This document shows, in pieces, positions 3,156 to 50,300 of a stretch of DNA of 64,000 bases (within the stretch, counting starts at the first letter, position 1; each line of letters begins with the position of its first letter). The notes under the pieces were generated by a model, which was given only the letters and a program-made list of their open reading frames with translations, had not been told where the DNA came from and did not search any database. Origin of the DNA: Telopea speciosissima (taxonomy: Eukaryota; Streptophyta; Magnoliopsida; Proteales; Proteaceae). The position numbers and the translations under genes are program-made. The stretch spans positions 4,909,568 through 4,973,567 of the forward strand of contig NC_057925.1 of NCBI RefSeq assembly GCF_018873765.1, in the 5' to 3' direction.

Positions 3156-5039
3156 AAGACAAACCCATGAAGCTGATCAGGTCAGATCTTTAAGATACTT
3201 TCTCTCAAAGATATTTACAGCCATGGTACTTCACTCATCAATGATTTAGATTGATTGGTTTTCATTATTTGGCCACAAAAGAATCCTTAATTCACCACAG
3301 TATTGCTAATATTGGTTGGTGAAGACGTGTAGTTTCAGACTTTAAGGAGCCAAGTCATATCACCTGTTGCAATTGGCTTGATTATGTTGTAACCAATGTG
3401 CTCAAACCTGATCAGTGGTTAGAAGGGATGGGATTTTTTTGATCTCCCTATTGCTTGTTCCAATCGGTGGGCTAGGTTGTCTTGGATAACCCCAGGTATC
3501 TGGTGGTGTCGGAGAAAATAGGGTTGAATCTTCAAGGTGCGTTACAAAGTCGTTTTCCTTAAGATACAATGAAGCCCAACCACTTGTTGATAATCTTGAC
3601 TATGAATTGCATATACGGAATCAACAAAAATACCAGAAATCTTTTGAGAAAAACAGAAAATCTGTTTTACTGCAGGAAGATGTTCTACAAGATCAACTCA
3701 AAGAATAAGGAAGAGACGAAGAGGAAGAAACGTTTATTAATGCCCTTGATCTGATCTTGCTCGAAGCGTGCAAAGTGCTAAGTACGTGCGCCACTAAACG
3801 CCTCTATTGCCCACACACAAGTACGCGCTCAAATGATTGTCCTCGCACGTACACCATAGCGAGCCTATTTGTATTAAATTATAAAACATAAAGCACTTTA
3901 TTAAATATACCCAACAAACTTTCTTCTCTTGCCCGATGTGGGACTATTCTCAAAACACATTATTTTGAAAATACTACAACATCTGGTTGATTTGGTCAAT
4001 CTCTGTCCTTTTGCTTTCTCTTCGGTTTCTATCCAACTTGTTTCAGCTGTAGAGTTATGCCGTTGTTTTTGTTCTGGAAGTGTCTCCTTGTATTTATTTT
4101 CTTTATTTTTGCTGTTTCTCCCCCCCCCCCCACCCTTTTTTGGGTGGGCAGGGGAGAAAGAATTTCTGAAATTCATTGATTATATTTCATTCACCAAAAA
4201 AAAAAGTGCTGAAACCCACCCCAATCTGGTGGCAGAGGCAAAAAAAATTTTCCAGTGAGGCAAAGTTCTACTGACCCTATTGTAAGCTATGTTGGGGGTA
4301 CGATGTCTTGTATTCCATTGTTTGCATTAGTGGGGTGATTAATTATGAAGGGCTGTAGAGATGCCGAAGGCCCCAAGATTTGAATTAACACGCAAGGACT
4401 GGGTCCTCGACAAAGTAATAGATCCATGCGAGGGTTTAGGGCTATAGCCCCGAGGAAAATTTTTTGGGGCTATATGGGTATCACAGTAAATTACCTATAT
4501 AGGGTTTTGCTATATATTTGTAGCCAGGGCTTTTTTTTTTGTAATCAATCCGCGAGAGGTGTGAGGAGGAGCGGCTATAACCCTATTCTCCATTAATAGT
4601 GAACCAGATCTCATCTCACCGTGGACGTAGGCAATTGTCGAGCCACATAAATCCTTGTATACAACTATGTGATTATTGTTTGCGATTTCCATTCGTTCCC
4701 TGCATCGTTTTAGATTCTTGTTTTCTACTGGCTAAGTTACATGAGCTAAAATCTTGTCTTCACCATTATTACTAATTGTACTACCACAACTTTGTTGTAA
4801 GACTGCCAAACCCATGTGGAGTTCTTATTTTAGTCTTTGGAGAGGGGATTAGATATGATGTAGGTTCCAGTCGATAGGCCTATGTTTCTTCTATTCTCTC
4901 TGATGGCTCGTGGAATCCAGGTCCCCCCAGCTTCCACATCTCTTGCTGTGGTTTGGGATCAGCTCCATTTCATCCAGATAGTGGGATTACGCACAATGGA
5001 TCCCTACTTGCTCCAAGAGTTTCTCCTCTGCCTTCGCTT
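3156..5039. other. Gene-free repeat-rich stretch
   Basis: No coding exon is supported. Short open frames near 3.6, 3.9-4.2 and 4.5 kb carry homopolymers (poly-C near 4120, poly-A near 4200) and no recognisable motif. The sequence near 3930 (GCCCGATGTGGGACTATTC) resembles the edge of an old LTR, but nothing else of an element is visible. Confidence 0.5.
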
Positions 5040-8043: not shown

Positions 8044-8777
8044 GATTTTAATCCAAACATTATTCACCAATTATAAAGAACCATAATAATGAAATGCAAA
8101 AATATTTCATTTTGAAAGCAAAATCTAAAACACTCATTAAGACAAATTTTACCATCAAAATTACTGCTCCAAATAAAAAAACAAAAGACTAAAATTTACT
8201 AGATAATTTATTTTAGTTTTTTTCAACAAGGTCAATCCATAATAGACAATGAAATTACACTTTAAACTTTTAGATGACAAGTAATTGTTTGGATCTGAAA
8301 TTACCTAACATTGATAGTTTTATAAAATAATTCTCTCCAAAAATGATCTTTCTTCTCTTTTTCCTTTTTGGTGTAAAACCAAAATCAAATAAAAAAGACC
8401 CACAACATGAAAAAGGTGTCTATGGTCCAGTTTTGATCCTAATAATTTCACAGTCAGATTGGAACATCAAATGGTCCATTGATCATCACCATCATGATCA
8501 TGTCCAACAATTCTTTTTTTTTTTTTTTTTTGGGTAAACCAACAACTCTTAAAAGGAGCTGGTCCAACCATGAGCCACCTGGTCTGACAGTGCTGTGAGC
8601 CCTATTCAACCTTCTGGTCTACCACTCTTACAAGTGTTAGATTTAGGAGGTGCAGCTAGGGTTAGTCAAAAAGGTTAATAAAAGGAGGAGTACCAGTGGA
8701 GCTGGCAATCAAAAGAGATGGAAGTACTAACTTTTGTAGGTTGGCTTGGGCAGTTTTTTCTCTCTCTCTCTCACTAA
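8044..8777. other. Gene-free stretch
   Basis: AT-rich sequence with a T run near 8515-8531. No gene evidence is visible. Confidence 0.55.
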
Positions 8778-8996
8778 GATCCTTTTCTACTCTCTAGATT
8801 CTGAATTAATCATTAAATACTACCTTTGCAAATTGTAAGAGAGAGAGAGAGAGATCCTTTTCTACTCTCTAGAATCTGAATTGATCATTAAATACCACCT
8901 TTGCAAATTGTAAGAGAGAGAGAGAGATCCTTTTCTACTCTCTAGATTCTGAATTGATCATTAAATACCACCTTTGCAAATTGTAAGAGAGAGAGG
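8778..8996. repeat. Minisatellite, 3 copies of 73-75 bp
   Basis: Three nearly identical tandem units start with GATCCTTTTCTACTCTCTAG (at 8778, 8853 and 8926) and end in a GA-rich run after TTTGCAAATTGTAAGAG. Units differ by a few substitutions and by GA-run length. No spacer variation is seen. Confidence 0.92.
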
Positions 8997-9009
8997 GGAA
9001 GAAGAAGAA

Positions 9010-9180
9010 GAAGAATGGGTGACTGTGAGTACTGCAATGGAGAGATAGAAAAGGAGGGGGGGGGGGGGATGGGCCATGGGGTGCCTGTGAGTACTGCAAT
9101 GAGCTTCAGAGAAGGGTGGGGGAATGGGCCATGGGGTGACTGTGAAACTGTGATGAGTACTGCAATGGAGAGAGAGAGAA
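9010..9180. repeat. Short tandem array, about 65-bp unit
   Basis: About 2.5 copies of a unit containing GTGAGTACTGCAATG and ATGGGCCATGGGGTG. The array is degenerate and G-rich, and it directly follows the 8.8-9.0 kb minisatellite. Confidence 0.75.
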
Positions 9181-9398
9181 TGGGGAGACTCTGACTGAAC
9201 TGTCCCTTCCTCTTTAAATCCAGAGTCTCACAGACTGAACCAAACTGAACCATCCATTTTGCTCTTGGGGTTTGTTGTTGGACTCTCTCTCACAGACAGA
9301 TGGAATAATGCCCATTACGAATGACCCGACCTCTTCAGCCTTTGTCCTTTTTATATATATTAACGTCTGTCAAGTCAAGTATGAGAGTCTGTACAACC

Positions 9399-35326: not shown

Positions 35327-38300
35327 GTAACATTTCGATCTTTTTATTTTTATTTTTTACATTTCATGTTATTCCGTTTAGCTGAAACGTAGCTTAGTAT
35401 AGCTCTTGATGGAGTTGTTTAATAGAAACCGACATTCCTTCGCTAAATGACCTTGTATTGAACTATCTTTCTTGTTATGTCAATGATGCCATTGTAAATT
35501 GTAAATTTGAGTAGGTGTAGGACTCAATTTTTTCCCCCGGTTTAACGAGACGTGTATTGGATTAATGGAAACAGATAGATTGATGGGTATTTGAAATAAT
35601 ATTTACCTTGTTCTTGGAGAGAAGAAGGATGGAAAAAAAAAGGATCCGGGTAGCCAACCCATTTAGTTGGGAGAAAGGCTTTGCTGGGTTTGAGTTGGAG
35701 AGAAGGGAACTCTCAATCTGTGTTTTCATTTCTCTTCAAATGATGCATCAGCCTTCATGTATCTTTTTCCAATTTTTTGAGGATCTATTTGTGCATTTTC
35801 ATTTTCTCTTCTACTTCTTGTTAAATACTAAAATGGGAATTGGGGTGGGGGGGGGGGAGGGGGGATACGATTTGCAGTGATTTGGGTAATAAACAAATGA
35901 TATATTTCACTTAAAATACGTAAATGGGGCTCTATAGAGCTTCTAGTTTATCATTGAATCTTTCCAAAGCTAGGCTTATGATAAATTGTACTTCTGTAGC
36001 CTTTGTAGAAGTAAAGTACTAAAATATTTACTAGTTTATTTTGATGAGGTTTACTAAAGTTGCAATCTTTGCTACCATTGATCCCCACAAGGCCTAATTA
36101 TTTTGGGGGAATTGCCGAGATCCACTAGATAAGAAAATTTATTACAAGATAAGCATGTTTAAAATTTGTTTTGCATCCATTAGTTTAGATTTTGGAAAGA
36201 TTTACTTAATCCCCAAAGTTAGTTATTGCTCATAGGTTCTAAGAAAAAAAGCAATGAGATTCCCCAATATCATGCTAAGAATTGTTACGATTTCCAGAAG
36301 AAGATGCCATTCGTTTGATGAGAAATAAAAAGGAATATTGAAAATTCGAGTGGCTGGAGCTGAAGCTATTAAACTTCCTAAAATACCCCAACATCACTTC
36401 TCGTGTATGACTGCTGAGCTGGAGTAAAGAAATAGGAAAATGCTTTAAACCGCAACAGGGGGAAAGAAGTGGGAAATCGAGAAGGCAGAAAGACGCGTGC
36501 AGCTTTCTCTAATAGCTTGTGTTTCCTAGGATTTTATCTCCCTTCTTCTTTTTCTCTTGTTTCTCTCACTCTCTTCTTTGAGTGTAGTGATAAAAAATAC
36601 TGCTTTTCTTCTTATTTTTATTTTGGTCCTTTTCTTGACCAAACCAGAGGATAATTTCTCGAAGGGTCTGATTGATGATGCCGATACAAATGAAAAAATT
36701 GAATGGGGTTGTATCATGTATGTGTCTAAGGAGTGGGGTTTTATGTAATGTGTCTAAGCCTTGCAGGCTTGCACTACTATGTTAAAGCAGTGTCATGATG
36801 AGGTCGAGTTTTTTTAGTATCTTCCTGCTGCTAACACGTGTGACCTCATTTGAGAGGTTTCCTACTAGACACCAATCACTGTTCTGTCTTCTACGGTGGG
36901 AGAAAACCTGAGATCATCGGAACCTTTTTTATCACCCAGGTAGAGAAAATCCCGTTCTTTCTTCATTGCTGTTTAATTCCGTTTCCTCTCTCTCTTAGTG
37001 GCCCGGTTGATTCCATAAATTCTGAAACTTAATATTAACGTGACTTCAGCTCAGCGGGCATGCCCGAGAAGTGATGTTGGGGTATTTTAGGAAGTTTAAT
37101 TTTGTTTTTTCTTGGAACCCATGAACAATAGCTAACTTTGGGGGTTAAGTGAATCTTTTCAAAATCTAAACCAATGGATGCGAAACAAATTTTAAACATG
37201 CTTATCTTGTAATAAATTTTCTTATCTAGTGGATCTCGGCAATTTCCCCATTATTTTTCTCTTGTCCATCTGGTCAGAGATCTACATTTTTTCAGTACAA
37301 AGTTCGTTTCTTTACAATATATGTTTGTGTGTTTGATGCCTTCTCTTTACAATATGTGTTTGTGTTTGATGCCTTCAGGATTCTTTGCAAGTTCTTTTCA
37401 CATGGAGCATGTTTGAAAGGGGAGAACTGTGAGTTCTCTCATGACTGGAAGGATCAATCGAATAATGTAAAAATGTCTTTCTTCTGATAGCATCTTTCCT
37501 TCAACTTTCTTGGTGCATGGTGTTTATGATTCCTGATCATTGCTTCTAACTGGTTTATCATCACAGATATGCACCTTCTATCAGAGAGGAGTGTGCTCTT
37601 ATGGTAGTCGATGCAGGTATGATCATGTTAAAGTTTCTCGTCCGCAGAATTCTGTTTCATCATCGTCAACAGATTCTCACCATCACCCAGCTTCAGATTC
37701 TGTTCAAGTGATTCGTCCTTGTAGAACTGCTTGGAGTGGGGAAACAACTGAAGTCCTTACTGTTCCTGTAGAGCTATCAGCTTTGAGTAGACCTTTCTTT
37801 CCTCCCACCAGATCAGCATGGAGTTGTGATACTGGAGATCATAACTTCTCTGATGATGAGAACGATGGGGAGTCCACATTCACTCAACCTGCTGACCGGC
37901 CTATATGTTCATTTGCTGCTGCTGGTACTTGTCCCCGTGGGGAGAGATGCCCACATATTCATGGAGACTTATGTGCCACCTGTGGAAAACATTGCTTGCA
38001 TCCATATAGGCCTGACGAAAGAGACGAGCACATAAAAACATGTGAAAGAAATAAAAAACACCTTGAGGCATTGAAACATAGTCAAGAAATAGAGTGCAGT
38101 GTGTGTTTAGATCGTGTTCTTTCAAAGCCCACTGCTGCTGAACGGAAGTTTGGGTTGCTATCAGACTGTGATCATCCCTTCTGCGTATCCTGTATCAGAA
38201 ATTGGCGTAGCAGTTCCCCGGCCTCTGGCATGGACATTAATACTGCACTGAGGGCCTGCCCAATATGTCGCAAACTGTCATACTTTGTTATTCCCAGTGT

Positions 38301-41300
38301 GATTTGGTATTCTACAAAGGAAGAAAAGCAGGAGATCATTGACAGCTATAAAGCAAAACTCAGGTACCATGAGGTTTCTTTTAGTAGCTATTTTTTTAGA
38401 GTAGAGCCTTTTATTTACTTTTCCCTGCCACCCTAAAGTGGGATAATTTAGAGTTCTGTAGACTACAACCCACCTGGCACGCCCTGCCTCCAGGGAGGAA
38501 AGGGCGGGGGAAGAGTCATAGATACAACCTAATATTCAACCCAAAATTTTAAGGTTGATTAATTGACCTACTCCTTTACAGTATGTCATATGTGAAGAAT
38601 AAAAAATCTTTTGTACTTTTTTTTGGGTTAAATATGCATACCCCCCTAAAATGCACCCAATATTCCTCATGCCCCCTTAAGGTTCTGACAAGTCCACACG
38701 CACCCCCTGAAAATTCCACATACCACCCCTACTTTACTCCCCTAAAGCCATTTAAGTCCAAAATACTAAAATATGACCAAACTACCCTTTCTTCTATCTT
38801 TTCTAAAATTTGAAAAGACCTAATTGCCCTGACCTATTTGCTAAAAGATCAAAATGCCCTCATCTTCTTTTACCATGTAGATACCCACCACCACCATCAC
38901 CACCACCACCGCTTTAGAACGGATGTGCAGGTACCACCACCTCTCTCTCTCTCTTCACCCCTCACTTCCTCCATCATTCTTTCTTCCCTCCACTCTCTCT
39001 CTCTCTCTGCAACTGATCAAAGGCGACGAACAAAAGGTTTCGAGGAATTACCCTGAGGTCTGACATAATCTGATTAAGAAAACACAATATAATAATAAGA
39101 AGGAAAATCAATTTCAAAAGGAAAAAAAAAAGAGCATGATTAACCAAGGGAATATTTATATAATTTAAAAGAAAAAAAAAAGATACAATTTGAGCAAAAT
39201 GCCGCTTTCCTGAATGAGATCGCATCCATAAATTCTAAGTGTTGTTTCTGTAGCTTCATCTATGTCATCTTTCCTTGACGGGGAGTTTCTTAACTGCTCA
39301 TCCGTCAAGTAGAATGTATTGATTGCTGTGTAAATCATTATGAACAGCTGCAAAACAAATCCAAGTTTCAGTTAAGGTAAGGTTAAGGGAAAACCCATGA
39401 AGGCAGACGCATTGCAGGCAATCCATGATTACAATCAGACCATCTAACCAACTAGCTTAAAAAAAAATGCAATTAATACTTTATCAAACGAGGGGAAATC
39501 AAGTCATGAGTGCTAATTGATCAAACCCTATTTGAACCTATCCGTAAATTTTAAAGGAAGCGAAGAATACAGGAATCCAATAAGCGTGGCAAATGTAATC
39601 GAAAGCAGATGGATACAGTAATAGAAGAATGAAGAAGAGCTATCAACTGACCTTCGCAGATTTTGCTACTTTTGCAGTGAAGAACGGAAACCCGGAAGCA
39701 GTTCGTCTGACATTGGAAGGAAGGGCAAAGGGACTCGAACCCACGAAGAAGAGGATTTCGAAATTAGACGCTTCAGACTGTATTAAAGTCCCCGCTATTA
39801 CTATTAATTGTTGAGCCTTGAACCATCACTCCAGCAGATTGGAATCGCCGCAGACCGATCCATCTCCGATTCCGCATTTTAAAACCCTAGAGCACAATCA
39901 AAAAACAAAAGGTTTCGAGGAATTTTTTTCCCCCCCGTCACCGGAAGCCATTGATGAGCCAGGGAAGTTTTATAAAAATGGAAAAATGCAGAGATATAGA
40001 AATAGAGCGAAATGCGATTGAAGGAGACGTAAAAGAGTAAAGAATCGGCCATACCTAAAGCTAAAAGAGAAAAGAAAATGGAACTTCAAGAGAAGGATAG
40101 TAACAGAGTGGATCTGCAGAACAGGAGAGTATATTTTCAGACTTGCATTGGAAGAAAAGGTCTGGGTGATTCAGCCATCAATGGAGCTTAGCAATTGATT
40201 TATTTCACTTTTCACTCTGTATTCCCCACCCCACTCCCTTTTCTTCCGCTTTTCCTGTTTTATTTTTTCTTCACTTGTTCGTCGCCTTCGATCAGTTGCA
40301 GAGAGAGAGAGAGAGAGAGTGGAGGGAAGAGAGAATGATGGAGGAAGTGAGGGGTGAAGAGAGAGAGAGGTGGTGGTACCTGCATATCCGTTCTAAAACG
40401 GTGGTGGTGGTGGGTATCTAAATTGTAAAAGAAGATGAGGGTATTTTGGTCTTTTCAAATTTTAGAAAAGATAGAAGAAAGGGTAGTCTGGTCATATTTT
40501 AGCATTTTGGACTTAAATGGCTTTAGGGGGGTAAAGTAGGGGTGGTACGTGGAATTTTCTGGGGGTGCGTGTGGACTTGTCAGAACCTTAAGGGGGCATG
40601 AGGAATATTGGGTGCATTTTAGAGGGGTACGCGTATTTAACCCTTTTTTTTTTGGGGTGTGTGTGATGAAATCCGTCAAAGAGATGGGATTTGGTTTGGA
40701 GGTTTTATGTAAAGCACAGTGGCTTGTAGATTACAGTCTCCTCAATTGTTCTCTTGAAAGAACGGGATTTTTGGAAAGATAGAGATGTTGGGTCAGGCCT
40801 TCCCTCTTTCCCCTTGCTCCTGCACCTGGTTATATTGTGCTATTTCTTGTTGGCCTACTTCTTTATCTCATTCAGTGTATGGTTCTGAGTCAAAAGACTC
40901 ACAGCCACAAAATTCATTGAGCTATTTGGGGGACTTTGGGACAGCAGGGTTGTAAAGAACCATTACAAGGTGCAAAAGACCCAGAGAAACTTGCTTGTGG
41001 GCTATGTCCACCAAAACCTGAATCACTTTAGGTTTACATTAACTTCTTTCAAGTAATTTATGCTGTTGTAGTGTCTAAATAATCCTTAGCCCCCATGAAA
41101 GGGTCCAGAATAAATGAATTAACTTTTAGAGTCTTTAGGAATATTGATGCCTAAAGAGTTCTTTTTTGAATGATTCTTTGAGTTCTCATTGTATTTGGAC
41201 CATTTGTAATAGTCTATGGAATGTTTCAGTACAAGGTTTTGACATGGCAACTCTGATGCTTAGGTGTTTAGGCCTCTTGTGGCAAAGCATTGACTAGTTG

Positions 41301-44300
41301 ATGCCTAGGAAATGATTTATTAACAGCCATAGGACATACAATATTAGGTGCTACGCCATAGTTGTCATGGCGTCGCCATGGCGTCCTGGCGCTGGGAGAG
41401 GTGGCATATTGAGCTACGCCATGGTGGATGTAAATATATCGTTCGATATGGCTTCCATGGCGACGCCATGGCGTCGCCATGGATGCCATACCACGATATG
41501 TTGGCATATCGGTCGATATTTGTACATATAAAAGTTAGATTAAATTTTTTTTTTTTAAACCATTTAATAGCTTAGATGCTTTGCTCCAAATCACACACAC
41601 TAAAGAAAGACTATTGCTATCAAGCTTCAGTAAACAGGTTAGCCTATCATTTGATTTTTACTATTGCTTTCAATTATTTGACAGGTTAATCTATATTTTC
41701 AATTTTTCATACTTTCATATACACTAATGGATATTAGTTACACTTTCATGAATTAAACCATAGTGGCATAGTATATTAGTAGTAGTGTAGTACACTTTCA
41801 TGTTGATTTTTTATGTTATAGGACATATATTATAGCATACTAAATGACATTAAAAATACAGAAAATAAAAAATTAAACATGGTCGACATGCTCGCCATGG
41901 CAACGCCATGGCGGGCGACATGTCGATATATCGTCGTGACACCCTTCCACCGACTTGGATCGCCGTGACGCCGTGACAACTATGTGCTACGCTGTAGAAA
42001 AAGGAACGCAATTAGTTTAACAAAGTACTGAATGACAAGAAAAAGTGAACCGTAACAATTGAGTATTGGATGCTGAATGCCTAAATGGTAAAGCTCAATC
42101 AGGTTTTCAACTTGATTGTTGAACCCAATTTGTGCATAGGTTGAGCTTTGATAACACAGTTCATTCAGCAGTGTTAGCCCTAGAGAGAGATTTTTTTATT
42201 TCAATGTAAGTCGATGTAAAGGCAATTATGGTCTGGTCCTATCTTTTCTTGCTAATGCAAGAACATATTTTGAGGTATTTTTTCTTATTCTGTTCTAATT
42301 ATTATTATTAGTATTAGTATTTGTAAATCAAGTAGTAGAAAATAGAGAAGGAAGAAGAGGAGAAAAGGAGGAGAAGAGATGAGAGTTTGAGAGCCAAGAG
42401 CAGCTCACTCAATTAATGTGAGAGGGCTGCAATATCTTTACTAATAGGGTTAGAGATTTACAAGGGTAAAAAGGGGAAAACAAAAAGCATAAAGCAAAAA
42501 GCAAAAAGTAAATAGGAGAGAGAATATCTCTCGGTATTAGCGCCAAAATGCTGACGCTAATCCCGAGAGGGATATTCCTCTCTCTTAACACTCCCCTTCA
42601 AGCTGGAGCATATATATCAGTCATGCCCAGCTTGTTACATATATAATCAACCCTTCCACTTCCTAAAGACTTGGTAAAAAGATCTGCAAGTTGCTCTCCT
42701 GTCTTGATATGCTTTGTAGAGATTACTCCTTGCTGAAGTTTTTCTCGAACAAAGTGACAATCTACCTCAATATGTTTGGTTCTTTCATGGAACACTGGGT
42801 TGGAAGCAATATGTATTGTTGCTTGGTTATCACACCATAGTTGCATTGGTGAAGAATCCTCAAACCCAAGCTCCATCAATAACATTTTCAACCAAACAAG
42901 TTCAGAGGTTGCATGTGCCATGGCTCGATATTCGGACTCCGCACTTGATCGAGCCACTACACTTTGTTTCTTACTCTTCTAGGAGATAAGATTACCTCCC
43001 ACAAATACACAGTAACCTGTAGTTGATCTCCTATCAATAGGTGACCCAGCCCAATCTGCATCTGAAAAACCTTCTACTCTCCCATGTCCATGATCAGCAT
43101 AGACTAATCCTCGTCCTGGAGCCTTCTTAAGATATCTCAAAATTCTGATAACAGCATCCCAATGAGAAGTGCGAGGAGATGACAAGAACTGACTTACAAC
43201 ACTCACCGGAAAGGCAATGTCGGGTCTGGTGAAAGTCAAATAGTTGAGCTTTCCAACAAGTCTTCTATACTTCTCTGGGTCTACAAGGACATCTCCCTCA
43301 TCAGCAACAAGTTTGACATTAGGATCCATCGGGTTATCAAGAGGTCTACACCTTAACATCCCAGTTTCTGTAAGTAGATCAAGAGTGTACTTCCGCTGCG
43401 AGAGAGATATACCTTTCCTTGACTGAGCCACTTCAACACCCAAAAAATAATTTAATTTTCCCAAATCCTTAGTTTGAAACCTCTGTTGTAAGTGAGACTT
43501 CAAACTCTTAATGCCTTCAAAGTCATCTCCAGTAATGACAATATCATCCACATACACAACAAGGAAAATTCTGCCTGTGGTGGTCTAACGATAAAAAAGG
43601 GAATGGTCATTGTTACATCGAGATAGACCAAACTCAAGAACTACTTCTGTGAACCGACCAAACCAGGCCCTAGGAAACTGTTTCAGGCCGTAAGGACTTC
43701 TTCAACTTACAAACCATGCCACACTCCCCCTGAGCAACAAACCCGGGAGGTTGCTCCATATAAACCTCCTCTTGGAGATCTCCACGAAGGAACGCATTCT
43801 TGAAATCAAGCTGGTGTAAAGGCCACCTATGAGTGGCCGCAAGAGAGATCAAAACCCGAACAGAAGTGTGCTTAGCAACAGGAGAAAAGGTGTCGGAATA
43901 ATCCACCCCATAAATCTGAGCATAGCCTTTAGCCACCAGGCGGGCTTTAAGGCAAGCAAGAGAGCCATCTGCATTAACCTTGACAACATACACCCATCGA
44001 CAACCTATAGCAGACTTCCCAGGAGGCAATGGAACAAGATCCCAAGTGTGGTTATGTTCCAAAGCCTGTAATGCCTCCTCCATAGCTTTCCTCCAGCCAG
44101 AACTAGACAATGCCTCTGCAGTGGTCTTAGGAACAGGATGAGATGCAACAGTAGATAAACAAGTGCTAAAAGAAGTAGACAAACCAGAATAGGAAACATG
44201 AGCAGAAAGAGGATGGCGAACACAGCGACGCTTACCTTTGCGCTGAGCAATGGGAAGGTCCAAATCGGAAAGTGGAGTAACCGGGGTAGGACCTCCAGAC

Positions 44301-47300: not shown

Positions 47301-50300
47301 CGAGAGCCCAAAAGAAGTCGATTACAGCTGCACCTTCTTATTTCGTGGGGATGAAGGAAGCTATGGAAAACCAGGTGAAGAAGCTTAAGCTTGTATCCAG
47401 TAATTGAACAGCTCTGATACCATGTAAATCAAGGAGCAGAAAATAGAGAAGGAAGAAGAGGAGAAAAGGAGGAGAAGAGATGAGAGTTTGAGAGCCAAGA
47501 GCAGCTCACTCAATTAATGAGAGAGGGCTGCAATATCTTTACTAATAGGGTTAGAGATTTACAAGGGTAAAAAGGGGAAAACAAAAAGCATAAAGCAAAA
47601 AGCATAAAGTAAATAGGAGAGAGAATATCTCTCGGTATTAGAACCAGAATGCTGACGCTAATCCCGAGAGGGATATTCCTCTCTCTTAACAGTATTAGTA
47701 GTAGTAGTAGTAATTAGGAAGGATAAAATAAGGAATTAGAGGATTAGAACTGACTTGGGAGTTGCCCCGATAAATGACAAGCTCCGAGAGAGTCGTTTGA
47801 GATGGTATGGTCATGTTCAATGGAGGCCTAGGGACACCCTAGTAAGGAGGAGTGATATGAGTCCGATTGAAGGAGCTAAAAGAGCTAGGTGCTTTGTTTT
47901 TGTTGGATCTATGTAGCCGACCCCATTAAGTTGGGATAAGGCTGAGTTTGTTGTTGTTGTGGTATTATTTTTTTGCGTTCATATAATGTTTTCTCAGTTA
48001 TGCAGTTTCATGTAGAACTTGATTCTTGTTGCTTATTCAGTTTCAATTCTTGTCAGACCATTGGTTCCGTGGTCTCTCTCTCTCTCTCTCTTTTTTGGGG
48101 GGAGGGGGGTGAGGATGGCAAAAGTATAAAAGATAATCACTTTATTTACACTTTAAAACTCTGTGGCTGTTTGCAGTCATACTTCTCAATTTTGATTTTG
48201 GGTATTAGTGCATTTACACCTATTCTTTGGCAGTTCTATTGATTGCAGGTATTTTGACTTCGGAAATGGGACATGCCCCTTTGGGACTAGTTGTTTCTAC
48301 AAGGTATGTGATTCAGTCGTTGAATGAGAACATAACTGTTGTTTTTTCCTGCACTGTGCAACTTAATATTTTGCTTCTCTTGAATGCAATCATGGTTTTG
48401 GTTATCATGAATGAAATCTCATCCCTCTATGGAATTTCTCTTTTAACGTTATTAGTTTTCATAATAATTGTCGTTCTTCACAACCTCTCCCATGGTCATT
48501 TTAGGCCTGCCCCGGGCTCTTTTAGCTCCTTCAATTGGGATCAGATCACTCCTCCTTACTGGTGCATCCCTAGGCCTCCGTTGAACATGGCCATACCACC
48601 TTAGACGACATTCTCGGAGCCTGTCGCTGATCAGGGCAACTCCCACATCAGCTCTAATACGTTCATTCCTCACTTTATCCTTCCTAGTTTTGCCGCACAT
48701 CCATCTTAACATCCTCATCTCTGCAACACATAGCTTCGCTATTTGACACTTCTTAACTGCCCAACATTCCGTCCCATTCATCATAGCTGGTCGGATAACA
48801 GTCCTGTAGAATTTTCCTTTAAGCTTTAAAGGAATACGTCGGTCACACAATACTCCAGTCGCACCTCTCCACTTCAATTCTCTGTCAAATAATCCTAATC
48901 CTTAACTAAAACTAAAACGGGACTCTAACTTGGACTCTAACTCTTTTAATGCTTAGCCAACTAAAACAAAAACAAAAATGACAAGATAAACCCAATGAAT
49001 GAGTCTAAAATAAATAAAGAATTAAATATCCTATTAAACCCAAAAACCCAATTGGACCCGATTCATCTTCATATGGATTACACAATGGATTCTGGTCTAA
49101 GGAATTGCTCCTGCATCAAGATCAGCACACCCCGTATTTTTTTTCCATGTGGAAGAATGATCTGGCAGTTCTGACCGATCGATTTTAAATGGTGTGGATT
49201 GGCCACATGTCAAATTTCTGACCGATTGAGATTCAATGTATCCTCTCATATGTAAGCATACCCTCCAATGTATGTCCATGCACCCCATGGTAGTCCTTCT
49301 CATTGTCTTGTTTTGCCACTTGGCAAATTCAGATTGGTTGAGACTTGATCTGCAAGCAGAGGACCTTGGGGTCCATCTATACACAAAATCTCAGCCCTGC
49401 CTGACCAATGGCAGTAATTGAAGGGTGTGCTGAGGCCCTGCTTCCATATATTTATAATTTTAATATCTTGTGTACCGCTTTACTCTTTCAATTGACCTTA
49501 AAAATTAATATATTATGGTGTCCATTATGATAGGAGTTGTCTATTTCCACTTTTTAGTTAGTCCAATACCTAAAATATTCCTGTGGAAGAGCATCTGTCT
49601 CTTGTAAGTGATTGGTATCTTATAATGGCCAAATGCTAAACAGGACCAGCCAAGTCTCTTTTGAACACCTCTCAGACGTTCGCATCTTGGGTATCAGTGT
49701 ATATGTCACTAAAATAGTTTAACTCGTAGAGAAGGTTTATGGGTTTAATGGATAGCATGTTTGTTGCGTTTCAGCACACACACAAGCCAGATACAAACAG
49801 GCCGCACCAATATATGCCACATAGAAACCGCTCCAGCTGTGTGAACACATATGCCAAGACCATTTTGTTTGGGCACATATACAGGCCACATATGCTTGAT
49901 ATTGATGACAAGGATCTATAGTATCTTGATGATGACGTAGAATATGGCAGCTTAACCCTAGAGGAGGTGCTTTTCTACTAATGCAGCTGGATTTGGATAT
50001 GTTTGGCTCGTCAAGCGATGAGGATAATTAAGTACCACGAGGCACTAGATTTTTTTGGTTGTTAATCTCACTGAAACGTATTCCAGTGATTCTGCAAGAC
50101 TAAGGGATGTGGGAATTATTGATCTCTCTGTTTTGGCTGGGGGTGAGAGGTTGCCAGGTGGGGTGGCGAAGATGACAGACGATCTAATTTTCCAATTTTT
50201 GATTGTTGTTCGAGTTCTCTTGACTATCTTTTGGTGGCAACGTTAATTCATGTTCAACTTATATGGTGGTTGTGTCTATGTTCATGGAATTTGATATTGA

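Follow-up and report, generated by a model that had tools for sequence, protein, structure and literature searches.

The element at 38625-40643 of the window is probably a composite, non-autonomous MULE of the Pack-MULE type that carries the starts of two captured genes, one of which, from a cyclin-L gene, would have been acquired by template switching guided by microhomology. Repeated capture of genes by its lineage is part of this reading and shares its strength. The window is the whole 64,000-nucleotide stretch of Telopea speciosissima DNA that was analysed (C10:4909568-4973567), and the genome searched measures 823 Mb.

The element is 2,019 bp long and is bounded by inverted arms of 410 bp (left) and 369 bp (right). 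According to passages of PMC3310237, terminal inverted repeats in MULEs are long, at about 100 bp or more, and both arms reach that length; the target-site duplication of MULEs is 9-11 bp. The earlier note had called the element Pack-MULE-like; its arms and its gene cargo, with a parent elsewhere, bear this out. The arms, the flanks and the adjoining host-gene frame are as follows.

38625-39034, plus strand: left terminal inverted repeat; the core runs from 38625 to about 38930, and the inner part, about 38931-39033, is derived from the leader of an FPP (filament-like plant protein) gene.
40275-40643, minus strand: right terminal inverted repeat; the inner part, 40275-40377, is derived from the FPP gene leader.
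38617-38624, no strand: left T-run flank, a possible target-site duplication (8/9 counting the base before).
40644-40652, no strand: right T-run flank, partner of the possible target-site duplication.
37537-38364, plus strand: open frame of the host gene upstream of the element, with CCCH and RING domains found by domain search.

Blocks 38625-38835 and 40433-40643 are inverted copies at 94% identity over 211 nt, with further blocks inward, and the right arm matches the left at 85% across positions 1-409 of the left-arm query. The element tips read GGGTTAAATA and TATTTAACCC. Its 9-bp target duplication (8/9) is weak because both flanks are T-runs (8 T on the left, 10 T on the right).

The CCCH and RING frame ending at 38364 belongs to what we take to be a makorin gene, a name based on the domain order. 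Matching host-gene frames begin downstream of the element at 48196 and 50656 (motif match by eye); the element therefore lies within an intron, of about 9.8 kb, of this makorin-like gene, and its minus-strand cyclin-L fragment is antisense to it. A second inverted-repeat element was seen at window positions 36104-37250, immediately 5' of the makorin-like exons, its arms matching over 167 nt (89%) and 58 nt (91%), and short palindromic CATGGCG repeats are clustered at 41366-41990.

The arms belong to a large family of terminal inverted repeats. A degenerate tip pattern (at most one mismatch) occurs at 651 + 659 = 1,310 genome places, against 1 for the reversed control. A search for other copies of the left arm, as suggested in the earlier note, gave at least 43 matches (best 40 of 1,788 candidates scored); 30 of these end by query position 289, short of the inner part. 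Querying with the inner arm (38900-39036, including about 30 bp of core) also gave at least 43 matches (best 40 of 48 candidates scored); those listed include both arms of this element and the FPP gene, and several extend into the query by no more than 49-62 bp. Sister element L033 (about C5:1180968-1182736) has a 9/9 target-site duplication, TACTTTTAA, and sister L035 (about C7:64899109-64900950) one of 8/9; these 9-bp duplications, together with the long arms and the gene cargo, are the basis for assignment to the MULE superfamily. The element has the marks of a Pack-MULE, namely gene fragments that keep their introns and whose parents lie elsewhere without arms. The MULE transposase domain PF10551 is found at no fewer than 150 genome places (best 150 of 826 candidates scored). 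At the nearest pairing of a tip with a transposase (L056), among the roughly 100 of the 1,310 tip places that were compared (C1 and part of C2), the arm matches on one side only, and among these places no autonomous partner could be tied to the arms.

Between the arms, the larger passenger comes from a cyclin-L gene.

39047-39895, minus strand: captured cyclin-L fragment, from C7:29515202-29516193.
39652-39895, minus strand: 5' leader exon, its 5' limit undefined.
39348-39651, minus strand: leader intron that retains donor and acceptor and has a net deficit of about 143 bp against the C7 parent.
39187-39338, minus strand: first coding exon, open over 50 codons plus 2 nt; 3/152 nt differ from the parent.
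39060-39186, minus strand: intron 1, complete with donor and acceptor.
39017-39059, minus strand: the first 8 nt of exon 2, then element sequence; the predicted spliced frame stops at the TGA at 39019-39017.

The coding start is the ATG at 39338, the leader-intron acceptor ends at 39348, and the exon-1 donor GT is at 39186-39185, in keeping with the earlier report of a minus-strand cyclin-L N-terminus with a leader acceptor, a first donor and an undamaged coding part. The description of the cargo as the first exon and leader of cyclin-L was right as far as it went; the capture extends through the intron 1 acceptor into 8 nt of exon 2, and the FPP leader passenger and the partly FPP-derived nature of the arms had been missed.

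The parent is a cyclin-L gene on another contig (C7:29515202-29516193), on the minus strand of locus L029. Its joined exon peptides match the solved Cyclin-L2 best (E 5.9e-63) and then Cyclin-L1 (6.9e-61), with cyclins T, K and C ranking below, among 36 sequences listed, and they hit Pfam Cyclin_N at 51.8 bits (cut-off 23). The element matches this gene at 96.6% over 39047-39423 and at 93.8% over 39459-39894. In the clean blocks there are 37 mismatches in 812 aligned sites, which excludes chance resemblance; the whole-length count of 56/849 is inflated, the aligner having misplaced part of the leader intron. The earlier note had placed the origin of the fragment in genomic DNA, and had named as an objection a parental locus flanked by the arms, or a lack of cyclin-L similarity outside the coding codons. 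Neither applies: likeness to the parent takes in leader, introns and exon, about 850 bp in all, and no match to the arms was found within the 9.9 kb of the C7 locus. A processed retrocopy is ruled out by the presence of the leader intron and the whole of intron 1, and the retained introns place the capture at the DNA level.

Other cyclin-L loci were considered as parents and rejected. The partial copy at C5:45471214-45471965 is more distant (67/688 sites, against 45/688 for C7); its match stops just past the exon-1 donor, and the copy is split by an insertion resembling an LTR retrotransposon. Comparison of its flanks yielded no more than two weak matches, inverted or direct (E 0.57). The C4 locus (L032) is a diverged cyclin-L paralogue that differs at 130/509 sites. 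By site patterns the element groups with C7, with modest support: exclusive sharing is seen at 38 sites for the element with C7, at 26 for C7 with C5 and at 16 for the element with C5, and C4 agrees with the odd one out at 6, 1 and 2 of these, respectively. About 27 bp of the leader intron, as read by eye in the alignment, is common to the element and C5, has a counterpart in C4 and is missing from C7 alone, so the capture probably predates a loss in C7. In exon 1 the element and C7 differ by I/L at codon 6, where the element has the residue of C4 and C5, by N/D at codon 7, where the element is the one changed, and by one silent change. An excess of C-to-T changes, as a trace of methylation, is not evident among the 37 differences from C7 (6 C>T and 4 G>A). 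As a separate observation, the wider C5 locus (L030, C5:45465448-45471965) has leader, leader intron and exon 1, and the repeats of the apparent LTR retrotransposon that splits it lie at about 3566-4032 and 8750-9215.

The genome search with the cyclin-L passenger returned this copy, C7, the C5 partial copy and C4, with short or weak matches besides, and no other element; there is thus no sign of transposition after the capture. Towards the 5' end of the leader (39837-39890), some 50 bp also match five other places at 84-87% (C9, C3, C1 twice and C244), and the exon-1 peptide has one weak genome match (C3:26027652, E 0.0035).

Splicing of a minus-strand transcript is predicted to give a 64-aa open frame beginning MIYTA, which could arise if that strand is transcribed; the element probably has no present function. 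A role in trans, along the lines of the small RNAs against the parent gene suggested in the earlier note, appears improbable; antisense cyclin-L sequence in the makorin pre-mRNA, or transcripts of the arms, would then feed small RNAs that tune the parent cyclin-L gene. The element does lie antisense within an intron of a gene, and 140/367 exonic and 337/829 overall 21-mers are identical to the C7 parent (shuffled control 0), so that targeting of the parent would be possible. The cyclin-L fragment, however, sits in the loop of the hairpin, outside the arms, and the hairpin arms alone would therefore yield no cyclin-L small RNAs. The passenger was also found in one element only, and two of the three exon changes relative to the parent alter the protein.

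The other passenger fills the remainder of the interior.

39896-40274, minus strand: FPP leader fragment, shared with C5:1181376-1181741 (L033) and C7:64900184-64900548 (L035).

The query 39895-40200 matches L033 at 97%, L035 at 92% and C5:5990180-5990488 (L034) at 94%. The last is a gene, with a filament-like plant protein encoded on its minus strand (Pfam FPP, 654.7 bits, cut-off 40) and the coding start downstream of the shared leader (read by eye), and no outer-arm match and no long inverted repeat were found in its 9.0 kb. The match to this C5 FPP locus, at 90% over 39892-40377, runs into the inner right arm. Over 102 nt the left inner arm matches the FPP leader at 74.5%, and a CT run differs in length between them. 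A C4 paralogue (L025) also has the leader (73% over 100 nt), which disfavours acquisition of the leader by the FPP gene from a MULE.

Identical 21-mers shared with the C5 FPP gene number 0/83 in the left inner arm, 9/83 in the right inner arm and 133/359 in the interior, which marks the FPP capture as the older one. The match between the arms and FPP is, on these comparisons, old and imperfect, and we count it against our preferred explanation. Where the present element has cyclin-L, the interiors of L033 and L035 have further FPP sequence; from these sisters we infer an ancestor with a full FPP interior before the cyclin-L capture. Sister L036 has the FPP leader at one arm only, which would fit a one-sided capture as the first step.

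L057 (C4:13327600-13330000), whose target-site duplication sits in an A-run, combines FPP leader in each arm with another passenger, of 1.1 kb; the FPP-armed subfamily has therefore carried several passengers. Seven other places match most of that passenger at 94-97%, and these and L057 all adjoin inner-arm query matches. Parts of it match C4:29404755, C3:64381936-64382859 and C10:4842125.

The FPP leader region recurs in another element family, whose arms measure about 370-390 bp in L018; there it derives from the C4 paralogue, L025, and is found at eight loci (93-94%): L018 (C3:13474884), L019 (C3:4552376), L020 (C9:8836273), L022 (C11:52654212), L024 (C9:52878935), L026 (C4:5874778), L027 (C3:27067391) and L028 (C10:5040943). 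The arms of this family, compared using L038, do not match those of the cyclin-L element. The FPP leader was thus captured by both families, from two paralogues.

The seams of the cyclin-L capture include a short repeat of the element's own interior.

39029-39049, plus strand: 21-bp copy of 39904-39924 between the left arm and cyclin-L (a templated insertion).
39904-39924, plus strand: presumed original from which those 21 bp were copied, within FPP-derived interior sequence.

The 21-bp direct repeat is exact. Read along the minus strand, the seam from the FPP interior into the cyclin-L leader has 3 bp of microhomology (TGC), with the next base changed; that from cyclin-L exon 2 into the piece of 16-21 bp from the element's own interior has 3 bp (AAT), with 2 bp of cyclin lost nearby; and that from this piece into the left arm has 5 bp (TTGTT). 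At random seams (200,000 per pair), three or more matching bases occurred in 6.1-6.7% and five or more in 0.7-0.8%, figures to be read with the fact that the seams were placed by eye and that such placement favours longer matches. The inserted piece agrees at 21/21 positions with the element's own interior and at 20/21 with the FPP gene, so that the element or its sister chromatid is, on one base, the likelier template.

These features are best explained as follows. A break or a stalled fork inside the element would have started repair, in which a polymerase would have copied the FPP segment of the element itself (or of its sister chromatid) and the cyclin-L gene, with a few shared bases guiding each jump between templates. 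Afterwards the element would have stayed in the makorin intron or moved into it once. The seams were seen in a single element, so the mechanism is not replicated. More tentatively, and with rather less confidence than in the composite itself, the seams may be read as a record of stepwise capture, in which repair used 16-21 bp of interior sequence from the element itself as template, switched to and from a gene at an unlinked site and ended in the arm, the first passenger having served as the bridge for the second.

The main rival to template switching keeps the same composite Pack-MULE and lets alternative end joining seal a free piece of cyclin-L DNA into a break; the 21-bp repeat would then be a brief templated insertion. 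End joining of the polymerase-theta type also leaves short microhomology and small templated insertions, and both are present at the cyclin-L seams. Copying nevertheless fits better with a fragment this long (about 850 bp in the element and about 990 bp in the parent) whose gene is still in place on another contig, and we regard joining of a free fragment as unlikely. Far less likely still is the fusion of two neighbouring insertions that flanked cyclin-L and moved together (the Pack-TYPE model of Catoni et al.). Capture by such fusion is described in passages of PMC8903248, with examples in PIF, CACTA and hAT and the suggestion that all DNA superfamilies are capable of it; here, no arm match was found across the 9.9 kb of the C7 parent locus, and what borders cyclin-L on either side is FPP-derived interior of the element itself, not arms.

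Pack-MULEs are a known kind of transposon, of which we describe a further example with unusually legible seams, and they may be chimeras of several genes. Like the Pack-MULEs of rice, tomato, Arabidopsis and maize, the element has long inverted arms, is non-autonomous and holds intron-bearing gene fragments, and a sister copy has a 9-bp duplication; it differs in that comparison with its sisters shows in what order the two captures probably occurred and lets the seams of the later one be read, and in that its own target duplication is a T-run. Passages of PMC3310237 describe MULEs in which acquired sequence became part of extended terminal inverted repeats, which resembles the FPP leader in the inner part of both arms here, whereas in the present element a second gene was added alongside, with the FPP-derived interior as a bridge. 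How MULEs acquire sequence is 'yet to be understood' in that text, and the origin of Pack-MULEs is 'perplexing' in an excerpt of PMC8277862. The latter treats animal Pack-TIRs under gap-filling and FoSTeST models, with microhomology at one or more breakpoints in 190/281 cases (median 2 bp); short breakpoint microhomology and filler from another locus are common to both systems, but here the element is a plant MULE, the parent lies on another contig, and the templated insert at one seam comes from the element itself. Capture favours low methylation and high recombination according to part of the text of PMC4858842; a review is available (PMC13317346). Among the titles and abstract openings listed for Pack-MULE with cyclin or with Proteaceae, none mentions such an element.

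With a known parent, sisters near the presumed state before capture and readable seams, template switching becomes testable here against insertion fusion. The leader of one gene, FPP, has entered two element families whose arms differ, each time from a different paralogue. If the pattern at the cyclin-L seams is general, earlier passengers and gene-derived arms would seed later captures.
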